Part shown: one piece after another, positions 39,592-45,416 of the stretch
How positions within the stretch are numbered: position 1 is the stretch's first letter
How the letters are laid out: every line of letters starts with the position of its first letter
DNA from: Catellatospora sp. TT07R-123
Lineage (GTDB): Bacteria; Actinomycetota; Actinomycetes; Mycobacteriales; Micromonosporaceae
Direction of reading: 5' to 3'
Assembly: GCF_018327705.1 (NCBI RefSeq)
Contig: NZ_BNEM01000002.1
Span: 434,001 to 498,000 of the forward strand
DNA length: 64,000 nucleotides
The notes under the pieces: model-generated
Told to the model about the DNA's origin: nothing
What the model saw: the letters and a program-made list of their open reading frames with translations, nothing else
Databases searched by the model: none
Position numbers and translations under genes: made by a program

Positions 39592-40008
39592 TCATCTGCT
39601 GCCGGGCGGGCCTGCGGACACGGCGCATGCCGCGGTGCCGCCCGGCAGCCGGTGACGGTTGCGGGCGATCCACCGGTAGACCACCGCCGCCGGATATCGC
39701 AGCGGAACCGTCCCGAGCAGGCGTCCCACCAGGCGGTATCTCCATTCGGGCTGATACCGGAACAGTTGGGCGAACGCTTGCACGCCGGAGACCGAACCGC
39801 CGTCCGGGAAGATCCACTGAACGGCCGTGTCCGCGTCCGCGCGTGTCAGGCCCAGGGCCGACAGGTCCAGCACCTGCCACGGACGCGCGTCGGGCCAGGC
39901 CGACAGGATCGACCGCAGCCAGAGCACACTGCGGGTGCAGAAGCCGCAGTCCCCGTCGTACACCAGCAGCGGCATCGCGGGTTCCGGCATGGGTTCCGCC
40001 CCCTTCAT
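39592..40008 (-). CDS. DCC-family thiol-disulfide oxidoreductase-like protein (DUF393)
   Basis: 138 aa. Begins with the diagnostic YDGDCGFC segment near residue 13, a CxxC-like redox site (C-G-F-C), and keeps the WRYRLVGRLLGTVPLRYPAA tail of the family. The ATG overlaps the MocR stop (ATGA), so both are translated together. DUF393 proteins often neighbour or are fused to HTTM membrane domains, the group to which SdpB-like proteins are related; an SdpB gene lies 3 kb away on the divergent operon. Confidence 0.82.
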   Translation of the reverse strand: MKGAEPMPEPAMPLLVYDGDCGFCTRSVLWLRSILSAWPDARPWQVLDLSALGLTRADADTAVQWIFPDGGSVSGVQAFAQLFRYQPEWRYRLVGRLLGTVPLRYPAAVVYRWIARNRHRLPGGTAACAVSAGPPGSR

Positions 40009-41408
40009 GCCGACACCCGAGCAGGCGTCGGCATGGCCGGCGTCAGCAGCCGGGCGAGTGTCGAGAGTCCACGGCGCAGCGCGGGCTCGGTGAGATGGCC
40101 GTACCCGAGGACCAGTGCCGAACGCACGGGCGCGGCCGAGAAGTGGTACGGGTTCAAGGTCGACACCCGTACACCCTGGTCGCGTAGTGCTGCCGCGATC
40201 CGCCCGGCATCCATCCCGGGCAGCGGCAGCAGCGCGGTCCCCGCCGCACCGGCGATGAGCGGACGTAACGGCGCGGCCGCGGCAGCCTGTGCGACCATCA
40301 CCCTGCGCCGCTGCTCGTCGATCAGACTGAGCCGGTGCATCAGCCGTTCGACCGTGCCGTCGGACAGCAGGCGCGCCATCGCGAGCTGGGAGACGTACGG
40401 CGGCGCAACGGCCTGGTCCCGGATCCGTCGGCCCACCGCCGCGGCCAGCCGGCTGGGCACGATCGCGTAGCCGATCTGCAGCGCCGGCGTGAGCACCTCG
40501 CAGAAGTCACCGACCAGCACCGACCGCGCAGGTCCGGTGAGCGACAGCAGCTTGGGCAGCTGGCCGGCGGCCGGCGACGGATGCCGGTCGCCGGCGATCT
40601 CGATCAGCGTCCCGCCGGTCCGGTCGGCCCACTGGGCCGCCTGTGCCCGGCGGTCGGCCGACAGGACCCCGCCGAAGGGCAGGTGCGCGCCGGGGCTGAG
40701 CACCATCGCCCGGCAGCTGCCGGGCACCTGGTCCAGGCAGGCGCCCCGGTCGTCGACCGTCATCGCCACCGGCCGGCCGCTGCCGTCCGCGGCCGCCCGC
40801 CACAGGGTCGGCGGGGCCGGTTCCTCGACCGCCGCCCGGGGACCGCACGCGTCCAGCGCCTCCAGTACGGCGCGCAGCGCATGCGCCCGGCAGGCGGCGA
40901 CCACGACCTCGCGCCCGGTCAGGGACACTCCGTGGTTGCGTTGGACGTGCTCAGCGATCGCATGCCGCAGCTCGGGCAGGCCGAGTTGCGGCATGGCGGT
41001 CGTCGGCGGCGTCCGGAAGCTGGCCGACCGCCACGCCCTGCGCCAGGCGGCCAGCGGAAACGCTTCACCGGCGGCCTGCCCGGGCCGCAGGTCGACCTCG
41101 GCAGCGCGGGGTTCGCGCGGGAGCCGGGAGGCGGCACCGGCACCGGTGGCAGCCGCCACGTATGTGCCCGACCCGCGCAGGCTGTGCAGGTAGCCGCGCT
41201 GGGCCAGCAGGTCGTACGCCTCGGCGGTCACTCCCCGGGAGACGCCCAACGCCGCCGCCAGCGTCCGGGTCGACGGCATCCGCACCCCGTGCGGGAACAG
41301 GCCGTCGTCCACCGCGGCGCCGACCTGCTCGGCGATCTGTTCCCGCAGTGGTCGGGTCACATTGCGGTCGAGCGTCACGGCGACCGTCAAAGGCTGTCGA
41401 TAAGGCAC
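40005..41408 (-). CDS. MocR-type GntR regulator with degenerate aminotransferase domain
   Basis: 467 aa from GTG 41408. Residues about 10-80 are a GntR winged helix (LREQIAEQVGAAVDDGLFPHG ... LAAALGVSRGVTAEAYDLL), then a fold-type I aminotransferase-like domain. In MocR proteins the PLP lysine lies in a G-x-F-S-K-x-L-x-P motif; here the aligned segment is GDFCEVLTP, so the lysine is Glu. The usual D-Y-D segment is also lost (IEIAGDRHP). It probably cannot form the normal Schiff base. It is divergent from the Sdp-type operon. Confidence 0.85.
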   Translation of the reverse strand: MPYRQPLTVAVTLDRNVTRPLREQIAEQVGAAVDDGLFPHGVRMPSTRTLAAALGVSRGVTAEAYDLLAQRGYLHSLRGSGTYVAAATGAGAASRLPREPRAAEVDLRPGQAAGEAFPLAAWRRAWRSASFRTPPTTAMPQLGLPELRHAIAEHVQRNHGVSLTGREVVVAACRAHALRAVLEALDACGPRAAVEEPAPPTLWRAAADGSGRPVAMTVDDRGACLDQVPGSCRAMVLSPGAHLPFGGVLSADRRAQAAQWADRTGGTLIEIAGDRHPSPAAGQLPKLLSLTGPARSVLVGDFCEVLTPALQIGYAIVPSRLAAAVGRRIRDQAVAPPYVSQLAMARLLSDGTVERLMHRLSLIDEQRRRVMVAQAAAAAPLRPLIAGAAGTALLPLPGMDAGRIAAALRDQGVRVSTLNPYHFSAAPVRSALVLGYGHLTEPALRRGLSTLARLLTPAMPTPARVSA

Positions 41409-41440
41409 GGCACAGATCTACGCAGGCTCGCCTGTGGTGC

Positions 41441-41473
41441 GGTCGTGCTCCGGTTGTGCTCAGGTTGTGGCCC
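41441..41473. promoter_or_regulatory. three 11-bp direct repeats between mocR and sdpC
   Basis: GGTCGTGCTCC, GGTTGTGCTCA and GGTTGTGGCCC follow one another without gaps. The 11-base period puts them on one face of the helix. Direct repeats are typical operators of MocR regulators, so self-binding by the adjacent regulator is plausible. Confidence 0.5.
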
Positions 41474-41494
41474 AGGTCGACGGCCGTCGGAGGT

Positions 41495-41545
41495 GCGGAC
41501 AGGGCCACTGCGGCGGCGAAGGCGGCGTCCAGTGGCCCTGTCCGC
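41495..41545. repeat. 15-bp inverted repeat upstream of sdpC
   Basis: Perfect 15-bp arms (41495-41509 and 41531-41545) around a 21-base centre, 75 bases before the sdpC start. It could be an operator or a leader hairpin. Confidence 0.55.
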
Positions 41546-41620
41546 GGCGCTCGGACTTCCACACGCTTGCTGTCGACCGGCCCGACGGGGGCCGGTCGGC
41601 AGAAGAAGGGTGGGAGTGGA

Positions 41621-42292
41621 GTGGGAATACTCGGCTCGCTACGCAGGCATTGGAAGGTGGGGGCGGCCGGACTGGCCGTGGCCGCGCTGGTGGGCTTCGT
41701 CCAGCCGGGGACGGGCAATGCCGGTGACCGGTCGGGGGTGCCGGTGTTCAAGCCGGCGGACCTGGCGGTCGCGGTGCTGTTCAACGACGGGCCCGCGGCC
41801 GGGTACCTGTCGTCGCTGAACCGTCCCCGGCCCGAGCGCACCGATGTGCTGCTCAAGAGCGAGGCGGCGGTGGCGGAGGCGGTCGCGGGCTGGCGTGCGG
41901 GGAGCTCCTTCGCCGAGCAGATCCAGAGCGGCGACCCGGTCAAGGTCCAGGACGCGCTGCGTCAGCTCGCCGTCCTCGCCAAGGACGTGCTGGAGAAGCT
42001 GTACGGCAAGGACCTGATCCTCCAGGCCGTGGACAGGGTCATCGACGGCATCAGCAAGCAGCACCTGATCACGGCGATCACGCTCGACAGCGAGCTGTCC
42101 CTGTACAACGGCGACATCCTGTGGATCGACAACGACGTCGCGCTGTACGTGGAGGTCGCCGCAGCCGCCTTCGCCGTCGTCTTCGCGGCCATCGTCTGGC
42201 CCGCCGAACCGGGTGCGGCGAAGGTGCTGGACCTGGTCCAGGAGGTGATGATCCGCAACATCGCGGTGAACCTCCAGGCCAAGGCCTACTGA
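41621..42292 (+). CDS. sdpC: SdpC-family antimicrobial peptide precursor
   Basis: 223 aa from GTG 41621. The layout follows B. subtilis SdpC: signal-like N-terminus (MGILGSLRRHWKVGAAGLAV), a segment VFKPADLAVAVLFNDGPAAGYL that parallels SdpC FSGEDYFRGLLFGQGEVGKL, a charged middle with SGDPVKVQDALRQL, and a late hydrophobic stretch ALYVEVAAAAFAVVFAAIVW (about 174-193) where the mature SDP toxin lies. SdpA- and SdpB-type genes follow directly, which supports the call. Unlike B. subtilis SDP, which has a disulfide in the toxin, this protein has no cysteine at all. Cleavage sites cannot be read from the sequence. Confidence 0.75.
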   Translation: MGILGSLRRHWKVGAAGLAVAALVGFVQPGTGNAGDRSGVPVFKPADLAVAVLFNDGPAAGYLSSLNRPRPERTDVLLKSEAAVAEAVAGWRAGSSFAEQIQSGDPVKVQDALRQLAVLAKDVLEKLYGKDLILQAVDRVIDGISKQHLITAITLDSELSLYNGDILWIDNDVALYVEVAAAAFAVVFAAIVWPAEPGAAKVLDLVQEVMIRNIAVNLQAKAY

Positions 42293-42328
42293 CGTACCGA
42301 CGGTTCAGCGAAGGGAGGAAGTCCGAAG

Positions 42329-42994
42329 ATGAGTGACCGCAGCGCGGTGCTGCAGCACCGCACCACCAGAGACGCCGGTGCCGAGGGCGACGGCGCGGGG
42401 GCCGAGCACGACGGCCGGGACGACGGACTGGGTTCCGCTCCGCCGCCCGCGTCCGAGCACGAGGACCTTCGGCTCGGCCGCCGGGTCGCGACGGTCGCGG
42501 TGCTGGCGATGATCCTGGCCGGGTACGTGCTGCACGCCGCGCTGCCGGCCACGGCGTTCAAGCTTCCGTTCTACGACAAGCAGGTGATCCGGTCGCTGAT
42601 GCCGGAGGGCTGGGCGTTCTTCACCAAGAGCCCGAAGGACCCGGAGGCGACCGTGTACGGACTGGGTCCCGGCGGTGCCTGGCACTCGTTGAACGCGGGT
42701 CCGCAGGCCAACGTGGAGAACCTGATGGGGCTGGACCGGCTGGCCCGGTCCCAGGGCACCGAGATGGCGCTCGTGCTCCGGCAGGTGCCCAGCGACGACT
42801 GGTCGGCCTGCCGCCGCACGCCCATCGAGTGCCTGTCCGAGCTGTCCCCGCAACATACCGTGATCAACTTCTCGACGCACCGCACCATCTGCGGTGACGT
42901 CGGGGTGGCCATCCAGGAGGTGCTGCCATGGGCGTGGCACGATCTGCCGACCGTCATGCCGTCGAAGGTCGTACGGGTGAGGGTGACGTGCTGA
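42329..42994 (+). CDS. sdpA: SdpA-family protein of antimicrobial peptide system
   Basis: 221 aa, starts 36 bases after sdpC with GGGAGGAAG in front. A charged cytoplasmic N-terminus of about 55 residues, one membrane helix (VATVAVLAMILAGYVLHAAL), then an external domain opening with MPEGWAFFTKSPKDPEATVYG, the recognisable SdpA block. B. subtilis SdpA and SdpB are required to turn pro-SdpC into active toxin. The N-terminal extension is longer than in B. subtilis. The C-terminal domain has three cysteines (DWSACRR, IECLSEL, HRTICGD) plus a terminal one. Confidence 0.82.
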   Translation: MSDRSAVLQHRTTRDAGAEGDGAGAEHDGRDDGLGSAPPPASEHEDLRLGRRVATVAVLAMILAGYVLHAALPATAFKLPFYDKQVIRSLMPEGWAFFTKSPKDPEATVYGLGPGGAWHSLNAGPQANVENLMGLDRLARSQGTEMALVLRQVPSDDWSACRRTPIECLSELSPQHTVINFSTHRTICGDVGVAIQEVLPWAWHDLPTVMPSKVVRVRVTC

Positions 42995-43974
42995 CCCGGG
43001 CGCTGAGCTCGCTGGGGCGGTGGGCACGCGCTCGGATGGCGGCGGCACCGTGGGGCTCGGGTCTGGGTCTGGGCCGTACCGTCCTGGCCCTGGGCACCCT
43101 CGGCACCCTGCTGGCCACCTCCCCCGAGGTGCTGATGTCCCCACTGTCCACGGGGGTGGTCCCGCCGACGTGCCTGGGCCTGACCCAGGCCGGCGTGTGG
43201 TGCCTGGTGCCGGCCTGGCACGGTGAGGCGGCCCGGTGGCTGAGCGTCGTGGTGCTGCTGGTGACCGCGGCGGGCTGGCGTCCGCGCATCACCGGACTCG
43301 CGCACTGGTACGTGTCGTGGAGCCTGATCGCCAACGTCACCATCCAGGACGGCGGTGACCAGATCACCACGGTGCTCACGCTGCTGCTGATCCCGCTGAC
43401 GCTGACCGATCCGCGCCGCTGGCACTGGCAGGCCCCGCCGGCCGGGCGCACCGGCGCGGGACGCGTCGCCGCGTACGTCGCCCTGCTGCTCATCCAGGTC
43501 CAGGTGGCGGTGCTGTACTTCCAGGCCTCCGTCGCCAAGATGGGCGTGGCCGAGTGGTCCGACGGCACGGCGATGTTCTACTGGCTGCGTCACCCGACCT
43601 TCGGCGCACCCGACTGGCTGCGCCCGCTCACCGATGTCATCACCGACTCACCGGTCGGGGTGTCGCTGCTCACCTGGTCCTCGATAGCACTCGAATTCGC
43701 CCTGGCCGTGGCGATCCTGCTGCGTCCACCGGCCAAGCGGCTGCTGCTGTGGGCCGGGCTGCTCTTCCACGACCTGATCGCGCTCACCATGGGACTGATC
43801 AGCTTCGACCTGGCGATGAGCGGCGCGCTGCTGCTCTACCTGCTGCCGATCGGGCATCAGGTGCGGGTGCCGGAGCGGCTGCGCCGCCTGGTGCCCGGGG
43901 AGCTGCCGTCCTGGGCCCGCCGCCCCGCTTCGCCACCCGCCACGGTGACCGCGCGGGACCTGGCCACCTCCTGA
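42988..43974 (+). CDS. sdpB: SdpB-family membrane protein of antimicrobial peptide system
   Basis: 328 aa polytopic membrane protein, close to the 323 aa of B. subtilis SdpB. I chose GTG 42988, which overlaps the sdpA stop, over an earlier ATG at 42928 that would overlap sdpA by 67 bases. Family landmarks include GLGRTVLALGTLGTLLATSP, QDGGDQITTVLTLLLIPLTLTD and YFQASVAKMGVAEWSDGTAMFYWL. SdpB belongs to the HTTM/vitamin-K-carboxylase-like membrane group. It is expected to mature the SdpC product. No SdpI/SdpR immunity genes are seen nearby. Confidence 0.82.
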   Translation: MLTRALSSLGRWARARMAAAPWGSGLGLGRTVLALGTLGTLLATSPEVLMSPLSTGVVPPTCLGLTQAGVWCLVPAWHGEAARWLSVVVLLVTAAGWRPRITGLAHWYVSWSLIANVTIQDGGDQITTVLTLLLIPLTLTDPRRWHWQAPPAGRTGAGRVAAYVALLLIQVQVAVLYFQASVAKMGVAEWSDGTAMFYWLRHPTFGAPDWLRPLTDVITDSPVGVSLLTWSSIALEFALAVAILLRPPAKRLLLWAGLLFHDLIALTMGLISFDLAMSGALLLYLLPIGHQVRVPERLRRLVPGELPSWARRPASPPATVTARDLATS

Positions 43975-44096
43975 ACTCCAGGCGGTCGCGCCGTCGCCCG
44001 TCCACCCGACATGGTCATACCGGGGGGGCGGGCGATGGCGCGGCCGCCGTCGGTAATTCGGGTGAGGACCGCGGCTGTTCCTGGTCAGATTGGCCC

Positions 44097-45416
44097 GTGT
44101 TTCCACTCCGAGCATCCCTGCGCCGACTGATCCCACCGACGCCGCTGTCGCGGCGGCTCGCGACCCAGTCCCTGTTGTTCGCGACCGCGGAGGGCACGTT
44201 CCTCACCGGCTCGGCGGTCTTCTTCACCCAGGTGGTCGGCCTGCGGGCGGCGCAGGTCGGGCTCGGGCTCACCGCCGCCGGCGTCGTGTCGTTCCTGTTG
44301 GCCTACCCCGCGGGCAAGCTGACCGACCGGATCGGACCGAAGCGGATGTGGGCGGTCGGCGCGTTCGTGGCGGCCATGATGTTCGGCGCCTGGCCGTTCA
44401 TCACCAGTTTCGGCGGCTACCTCGCGATGGTCGTCTGCTTCGAGATCGTCGAGAACGCCGCCGGGGCCGGCCGCAACGCCTACGTCCTGGACGTGATGCC
44501 CGAACAGGAACGGGTGGCGACGCAGGCCTACATGTACTCCGCGCTCAACGTCGGCTTCACCCTCGGCGCGCTCATCGGCGGTGTCGCACTGGCCGTCGAC
44601 GACCTGGCCCTGATCCGGTGGATGCCCCTGTTCACCCTGGCCATCGGGATACTCAACGCGGTGTTCATCGCCCGGCTGCCGCGGGCGCCGCACGACCTCG
44701 CGCGGTCGGCGTCCGGACGGCGGACCTCGGCGGTGAAGCCGGCCCGCCGAGGGCCGCTGCGCAACGTCGGCTGGATGCTGAGCAGCTTCTTCAGCGGCAC
44801 GATGTGGACCAACCAGGTCCTGCTGAACGTCGTGATCCCGCTGTGGCTGGTGCAGGCCACCGACGCGCCGCACTGGCTGCTGGCATGGCTGTTCGGCACC
44901 AACACGGTGCTGTGCATCTTCCTGCCCGCCTACACCTCACGCGGAGTCGAGACGACCTCGGACGCGCTTCGCTCGGTACGCATCGCCGGCCTCTTCTTCG
45001 TCGCCGCCTGTCTGATCACCATGGCCACGCACAGCACGGCCGGACTGGTGACGATGCTCCTCGTGTGGCTGGGCCACGTGGCCGTGACCGGTGCGGAGCT
45101 GTACTTCTCGGGCGCCAACTGGGCGTTTCAGGCCAAGCTCATGGACCCCGCCAGACGCGGCGAGTACGGCGGCGTCGCCGAGGTGTTCAGCACCCTGGGC
45201 GGCCGCTGGGCACCGGCCCTGTACACGTTCCTGGCCATGTCGTGGCACCCCGCCGGCCTACCCGGCGCGGGCTGGCTGGTGATCGCGGGCATCTCGCTGT
45301 TGGCCGTCGCGGGGTTCCACCCGTCGGTACGCCTGGCCGAACGGTTCCTCACCCGCGAGTCGATCGCCGACGCACCGGCAGGCGACCAGGTCGAGGTCGC
45401 CGCATCGGCGTCGTGA
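44097..45416 (+). CDS. MFS transporter
   Basis: 439 aa from GTG 44097, about 12 membrane helices. The loop 2-3 motif GKLTDRIGPKRMW is the MFS motif A (G-x3-D-R-x-G-x-K/R). Sequence resembles drug or metabolite exporters. It follows the Sdp-type operon on the same strand after 122 bases, so a role in export of or immunity to the peptide is possible but only positional. Confidence 0.85.
   Translation: MFPLRASLRRLIPPTPLSRRLATQSLLFATAEGTFLTGSAVFFTQVVGLRAAQVGLGLTAAGVVSFLLAYPAGKLTDRIGPKRMWAVGAFVAAMMFGAWPFITSFGGYLAMVVCFEIVENAAGAGRNAYVLDVMPEQERVATQAYMYSALNVGFTLGALIGGVALAVDDLALIRWMPLFTLAIGILNAVFIARLPRAPHDLARSASGRRTSAVKPARRGPLRNVGWMLSSFFSGTMWTNQVLLNVVIPLWLVQATDAPHWLLAWLFGTNTVLCIFLPAYTSRGVETTSDALRSVRIAGLFFVAACLITMATHSTAGLVTMLLVWLGHVAVTGAELYFSGANWAFQAKLMDPARRGEYGGVAEVFSTLGGRWAPALYTFLAMSWHPAGLPGAGWLVIAGISLLAVAGFHPSVRLAERFLTRESIADAPAGDQVEVAASAS

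Follow-up and report, generated by a model that had tools for sequence, protein, structure and literature searches.

An SDP-family toxin operon without cysteine in its precursor in Catellatospora sp. TT07R-123, and an SdpB with the predicted fold of vitamin K carboxylase

Positions 41,621 to 43,974 of a 64,000-nucleotide stretch of the Catellatospora sp. TT07R-123 genome (contig NZ_BNEM01000002.1, positions 434,001 to 498,000; hereafter the window) hold three tightly packed genes on the forward strand, in the order sdpC-sdpA-sdpB and with every frame intact, which are homologs of the genes for the Bacillus subtilis toxin SDP. The first, sdpC (41621..42292), begins with GTG and encodes pro-SdpC, a protein of 223 amino acids (aa) without cysteine whose signal peptide was judged by eye to occupy about residues 1–33. 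The second, sdpA (42329..42994), encodes a 221-aa protein with four invariant cysteines, present in 29 of 29 aligned SdpA proteins (alignment A8, with 28 of the 71 SdpA found). The third, sdpB (42988..43974), encodes a multi-helix membrane protein with a predicted HTTM/GGCX fold. Its open frame begins at 42928, and the start is probably the GTG at 42988 rather than the ATG at 42928, because the homologs from loci L031 and L020 show methionine at that position; with this start, sdpB overlaps the end of sdpA by 7 nucleotides.

According to PMC6818787, SDP is a 42-residue peptide (C141–S182) from the hydrophobic part of B. subtilis SdpC; its formation requires SdpA and SdpB, and it collapses the proton motive force. 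The paralog YitM yields a toxin of different sequence, and the sdpABC homologs in B. subtilis form five groups, each with a hydrophobic part of its own. The window operon resembles sdpABC-sdpRI, as described there, in its three Sdp families and in a predicted secreted precursor with an internal hydrophobic toxin segment; it differs in gene order (C-A-B rather than A-B-C), in having no cysteine in SdpC, and in the lack of an SdpI match. The second B. subtilis system, yitPOM-yitQ, is an sdpABC paralog with another toxin sequence and an immunity protein dissimilar to SdpI (PMC6818787), and its gene order, regulator, and immunity are other than those of the window. Actinobacterial sdp genes as such are already known: sdpABC-like genes were described in Brevibacterium aurantiacum (PMC5719810) and SdpAB and SdpC homologs in Streptomyces and Myxococcus (PMC3924187). 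In the relevant passages of these accounts SdpAB are regarded as exporters or as maturation proteins, and cysteine is not mentioned.

The sequence-only reading of this DNA had recognized an sdpC-sdpA-sdpB operon of the SDP type, and searches against the family models bear this out, for SdpC by a different route from that of its two partners. SdpA scored 120.2 bits against PF17418 (cut-off 25) and 114.2 bits against TIGR04034 (cut-off 53.1), and SdpB scored 263.2 bits against TIGR04033 (cut-off 178.4), all above the curated cut-offs. SdpC reached only 20.7 bits (E 3e-4) against TIGR04032, far below the cut-off of 99.2, in a nearly complete match spanning positions 15–170 of the 172-position model, and it had zero matches in Pfam at E ≤ 1. 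Judged from its sequence, SdpC is a divergent homolog and, by the cut-off, not a TIGR04032 member. Its assignment comes from profile–profile comparison with hhalign, in which the window SdpC and six database relatives aligned with seven SdpC proteins (six from Bacillota and one from Tsukamurella) over 162 columns with a probability of 96.9% and an E value of 1.5e-10, the SGD motif and the C-terminal helix being in register. Three of the seven targets (L105, L106, and L107) are annotated SDP-family toxins, and the remaining four were located by our own hidden Markov model (HMM). TIGR04032 also matches 57 of 57 members of SdpC alignment A4 at E ≤ 1e-3; A4 contains the window protein and those of 56 of the 62 available loci, the most divergent (L074, L077, L092, L093, L096, and L101) having been excluded, and its sole invariant column is the serine of a QSGDP motif that is present in the window SdpC.

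A late hydrophobic core had also been predicted for SdpC, and the best 19-residue hydropathy windows cover residues 171–197, as that prediction would have it. The likely toxin core (42110..42199, forward strand; residues 164–193, GDILWIDNDVALYVEVAAAAFAVVFAAIVW) is drawn from conservation, hydropathy, and the lone helix of a structural model at low confidence. The closest database relative of the window SdpC is a metagenomic protein, P0003, with 49% identity over 83%, and 27 of 30 residues are identical in the core compared with 62 of 161 on its N-terminal side and 11 of 30 on its C-terminal side (73 of 191 outside the core). Conservation centered on the core speaks for function. P0003 differs from the window protein in having two cysteines, at 142 and 198, which flank the 164–193 core and lie 56 residues apart. 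The AlphaFold model of SdpC, made with 57 sequences and numbered one lower than the protein, has a mean predicted local distance difference test score of 73. A helical prodomain at 41–140 is confident (block means of 82–94), residues 152–170 score under 50, a lone helix at 171–190 scores 60–66, and a C-terminal helix at 199–217 scores about 86; this layout would fit an internal peptide held between two prodomain parts.

The cysteine content of SdpC proteins was surveyed across sdp loci. The main sample comprised 91 loci: 13 stretches from 12 actinobacterial genomes (L016–L028), 73 contigs (L031–L103), plasmid loci L104–L107 (4 of 12 matching plasmid records), and the window. Six duplicates were removed, five of them lying on the same contigs as other loci (L034, L041, L046, L080, and L085 on those of L020, L016, L018, L023, and L024) and one nearly identical to another (L089 to L087), which left 85. 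An SdpC was found beside sdpAB in 79 of these with a family HMM that was not blind to synteny, its seed alignment having included members chosen by position; the HMM gave 80 matches, from which L102, a 128-aa chance frame, was discarded. It found no SdpC in L027, L078, L084, L099, or L103, nor in L175 of the second sample described below. The placed loci are spread over Actinomycetota, Myxococcota, Bacteroidota, and other phyla. Of these 77, sdpC is the leading gene in 68, and it leads in each of the 42 recorded as Actinomycetota. Within the class of Catellatospora, SdpA was found in 13 of 394 genomes, TT07R-123 among them.

Counted after the QSGD motif, cysteine is absent in 28 of the 79 SdpC proteins (the window counted, and with related species remaining among them), single in 40, and present twice or more in 11. 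Clustering at 50% identity gave 51 groups, none of mixed state: 24 without cysteine, 18 with one, and 9 with two or more. A second sample was drawn from 345 genomes of the order of genome G151, 20 of which exceeded the SdpB cut-off; six of those were already in the main sample, and the other 14 yielded 15 regions, four of them earlier loci (L165, L169, L171, and L174) and 11 new. Ten of the new loci had an SdpC, the toxin part of which held zero, one, and two cysteines in 7, 1, and 2 cases, the one-cysteine member (L172) being a partial frame. Toxin parts with at least two cysteines are therefore in the minority, and cysteine-free ones are common in the family. The window SdpC, with zero cysteines in 223 residues, lacks the B. 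subtilis-type toxin pair, exactly as the sequence-only reading had said; that the missing pair is an oddity is not borne out by 11 of 79 SdpC with two or more cysteines and cysteine-free fractions of 28 of 79 and 7 of 10.

On a tree of SdpB built from 79 rows by a quick method (L096, with an in-frame stop, was left out of the alignment), the cysteine state of SdpC changed at least 15 times. The window falls in a seven-member clade with a Shimodaira–Hasegawa-like approximate likelihood ratio support of 100, and six of the seven are cysteine-free; the seventh, L035 from a Humibacillus metagenome-assembled genome, carries CPPC where the toxin core ends. The nearest SdpB (71% identity) is that of Rhizocola hellebori (L031), which shares the C-A-B order and a cysteine-free toxin part with the window and whose SdpA is 59% identical; its SdpC core is a different one. 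The divergent cysteine-free core of the window fits the B. subtilis pattern of groups that each have their own hydrophobic part. A cysteine-free SdpC also occurs on a Staphylococcus simulans plasmid, in an sdpA-sdpB-sdpC operon accompanied by annotated SdpI and SdpR. For SDP itself, Perez Morales and colleagues reportedly found in 2013 that the disulfide raises activity yet is not needed for it. By locus, the commonest state is a single cysteine (40 of 79), mostly where the toxin core begins, which suggests dimers or another modification for those 40 proteins. The SdpC-like proteins of L092 and L095 have a toxin part made of an alternating repeat rich in Asn (e.g., NINVHTNVNVQLNVN), which resembles a β-strand more than a membrane helix.

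SdpB is a membrane protein with the predicted fold of human vitamin K carboxylase (GGCX), its model matching the membrane-domain fold of GGCX structures (PDB 9l6q, 9wfc, and 9bum). In the HMMER alignment, Lys204 of SdpB (codon AAG, 43537..43539, forward strand; numbered from 42928) is aligned with the second lysine of GGCX K217–K218, and it is invariant in 60 of 60 aligned SdpB proteins (alignment A5, with 59 of 73 loci). GGCX Lys218, the counterpart of SdpB Lys204, we take to be the catalytic lysine; His160 of GGCX, presumably an active-site residue, falls outside the significant alignment. The likeness lies in the fold of the modeled membrane domain and in the aligned lysine. As for differences, identity is 12–16%, GGCX has about 758 aa compared with 328–348 for SdpB, and SdpB aligns with the first 330-odd residues of GGCX only. 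Going by the model, SdpB is more likely to be an enzyme, or a processing partner derived from one, than simply an exporter. Neither the SdpB–GGCX link nor a cysteine-free SdpC appeared in open-licence literature among the matches listed, which is weak evidence of absence.

Two genes on the reverse strand diverge from sdpCAB. One encodes a MocR/PdxR-like GntR regulator (40005..41408) that scores under the PdxR cut-off and may regulate the operon; the other, overlapping it by ATGA and beginning 1.6 kb from sdpC, encodes a DCC1-like thiol-disulfide oxidoreductase (39592..40008; PF04134, 52.7 bits, cut-off 27.8), a possible accessory partner. The 212-bp intergenic region between this mocR-DCC1 unit and sdpCAB (41409..41620), defined from the coordinates, presumably holds divergent promoters. 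On the other side of the operon, a hairpin on the forward strand (43981..44048) with a 23-bp stem (G-U pairs allowed) and no T run has a z score of −5.59, its stability being equaled in 0 of 200 shuffles; it is likely the transcript end of the sdp operon.

DCC1 genes recur in the stretches examined around other sdp loci. They are present in 8 of the 85 main-sample loci (the window, L020, L021, L024, L033, L093, L105, and L106, the match in L033 barely equaling the cut-off) and in 4 of the 11 second-sample loci (L163, L166, L167, and L170). The gene lies immediately 3′ of sdpB in L163, L166, and L167 and 2 nucleotides 3′ of sdpC in L105, overlaps sdpA in L106, and is 1–3 kb away in other loci. 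The chance expectation is 0.1–0.2 by a hand estimate that assumes about 8-Mb genomes, stretches of about 13 kb, and about one DCC1 gene per genome, the last figure coming from 20 matches in 23 genomes picked partly for having sdp genes; the TT07R-123 genome has two DCC1-like genes. A cysteine-free toxin part is found in 8 of the 12 DCC1-bearing loci (the window, L020, L033, L105, L106, L163, L166, and L167), one cysteine in L093, and two in L021, L024, and L170. By Pfam matches, an HTTM gene and a DCC1 gene stand no more than 4 kb apart in 6 of the 23 genomes (G000, G005, G008, G009, G151, and G233). Three of these, G005, G008, and G009, are congeners without an SdpA match and, being of one genus, are not independent cases. 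A general role for DCC1 is opposed by its absence from the stretch examined in 84 of 96 loci, including the 6.6 kb of the R. hellebori locus, where the mocR-DCC1 unit is missing, and by the lack of any DCC1 match in 7 of 13 sdp genomes within that set of 23 (G148, G199, G244, G285, G295, G366, and G379).

Candidate immunity genes differ from locus to locus. SdpI is encoded in L021 and L022, a DUF1648 protein in L033 and L036 (that of L049 scores under the cut-off), and a CAAX-type protease in L020. A GntR regulator together with a DUF1648-like membrane protein recurs beside sdpCAB (L016, L017, L033, L036, L049, and further loci), and this pair may be an actinobacterial immunity module. Single-linkage BLAST clustering placed GntR regulators from 28 loci in one cluster, which the window joins through its MocR, and L049-type membrane proteins from 23 loci in another.

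We consider it likely that the window holds an intact and functional SDP-family toxin operon; it is a real and probably working member of the family. Several observations weigh against this. The SdpC score lies far under the TIGR04032 cut-off, no PDB structure matches the SdpC model at better than E 1, and the model is of low confidence over its toxin part. A clear hydrophobic stretch is lacking in some of the cysteine-free relatives (e.g., L023, L050, L066, L164, and L168), so that "cysteine-free" does not denote a single kind of toxin and these may work otherwise than that of the window. Of 11 genomes in the genus only one has SdpA, which makes the operon patchy, and it may be silent. A producer should need an immunity gene, and none was recognized: SdpI (PF13630) had 0 matches at E ≤ 0.1 in the 9.17-Mb genome, in a search whose control was positive in 6 of 14 genomes, B. 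subtilis included; the best DUF1648 match in the genome reached 16.8 bits, below the cut-off of 28.7; and the flanks of the operon showed no gene of the SdpI, DUF1648, or CAAX type. The sequence-only reading was right in pointing out that no SdpI is visible. Immunity might come instead from the major facilitator superfamily (MFS) transporter gene 3′ of the operon (approximately 44099–45416), acting as an exporter. The gene adjoins the operon on the same strand, and the pump YknWXYZ shields B. subtilis from SDP (PMC4887032). We think this improbable, however, because the very stable hairpin separates the MFS gene from sdpB, 8 of 10 congeners have relatives of the transporter (44–48% identical) and none of these has an SdpA match, and L031, the nearest sdp locus, has a different, open-ended frame at that place. 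A decayed operon, whose SdpC lost its cysteines along with its function, would account for the weak TIGR04032 score, for the missing immunity gene, and for the two cysteines of P0003, the closest protein homolog. The sequence-only reading had named such a homolog as the sign of decay; the cysteines are there, but decay finds no support. The two cysteines are spaced 56 residues apart and fall outside the core, which sets them off from the B. subtilis pair. All three frames of the window operon are intact, conservation of SdpC is highest in the core, and the cysteine-free state is common in the clade, which together make decay very unlikely.

A further possibility bears on how the toxin is made. 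SdpB could be an active, quinol-dependent enzyme related to GGCX whose action on SdpC, such as carboxylation of Glu or Asp or some other base chemistry, is required for maturation. In loci that have DCC1, this protein would keep quinone or thiols in the reduced state. The toxin, or else the precursor, would then carry a modification. We hold this to be possible, if doubtful. As a tentative extension with no better prospects, SDP-family toxins might be matured by a bacterial vitamin K carboxylase relative, SdpB acting on pro-SdpC with menaquinol and its conserved lysine, SdpA with its four invariant cysteines presenting the substrate, and linked DCC1 giving reducing power in some lineages.

For a functional window operon, we envisage that SdpC would be exported by the Sec pathway and its signal peptide then removed. 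SdpA and SdpB would assist in excising an internal hydrophobic segment of about residues 160–195, and the released peptide would insert into the membranes of competing or sibling cells and collapse their proton gradient. The toxin would work without a disulfide, the invariant cysteines of the system being those of SdpA.

In lacking cysteine the window operon is ordinary, and its interest lies more in SdpB. The survey shows sdp operons well beyond Bacillus and drops the disulfide from the requirements for an SDP-family toxin. A model with the vitamin K carboxylase fold and an aligned lysine makes the function of SdpB testable: if the GGCX-like idea is true, change of the lysine or loss of menaquinone should block toxin maturation, and a role in supplying reducing power would explain an oxidoreductase gene beside toxins that have no cysteine.
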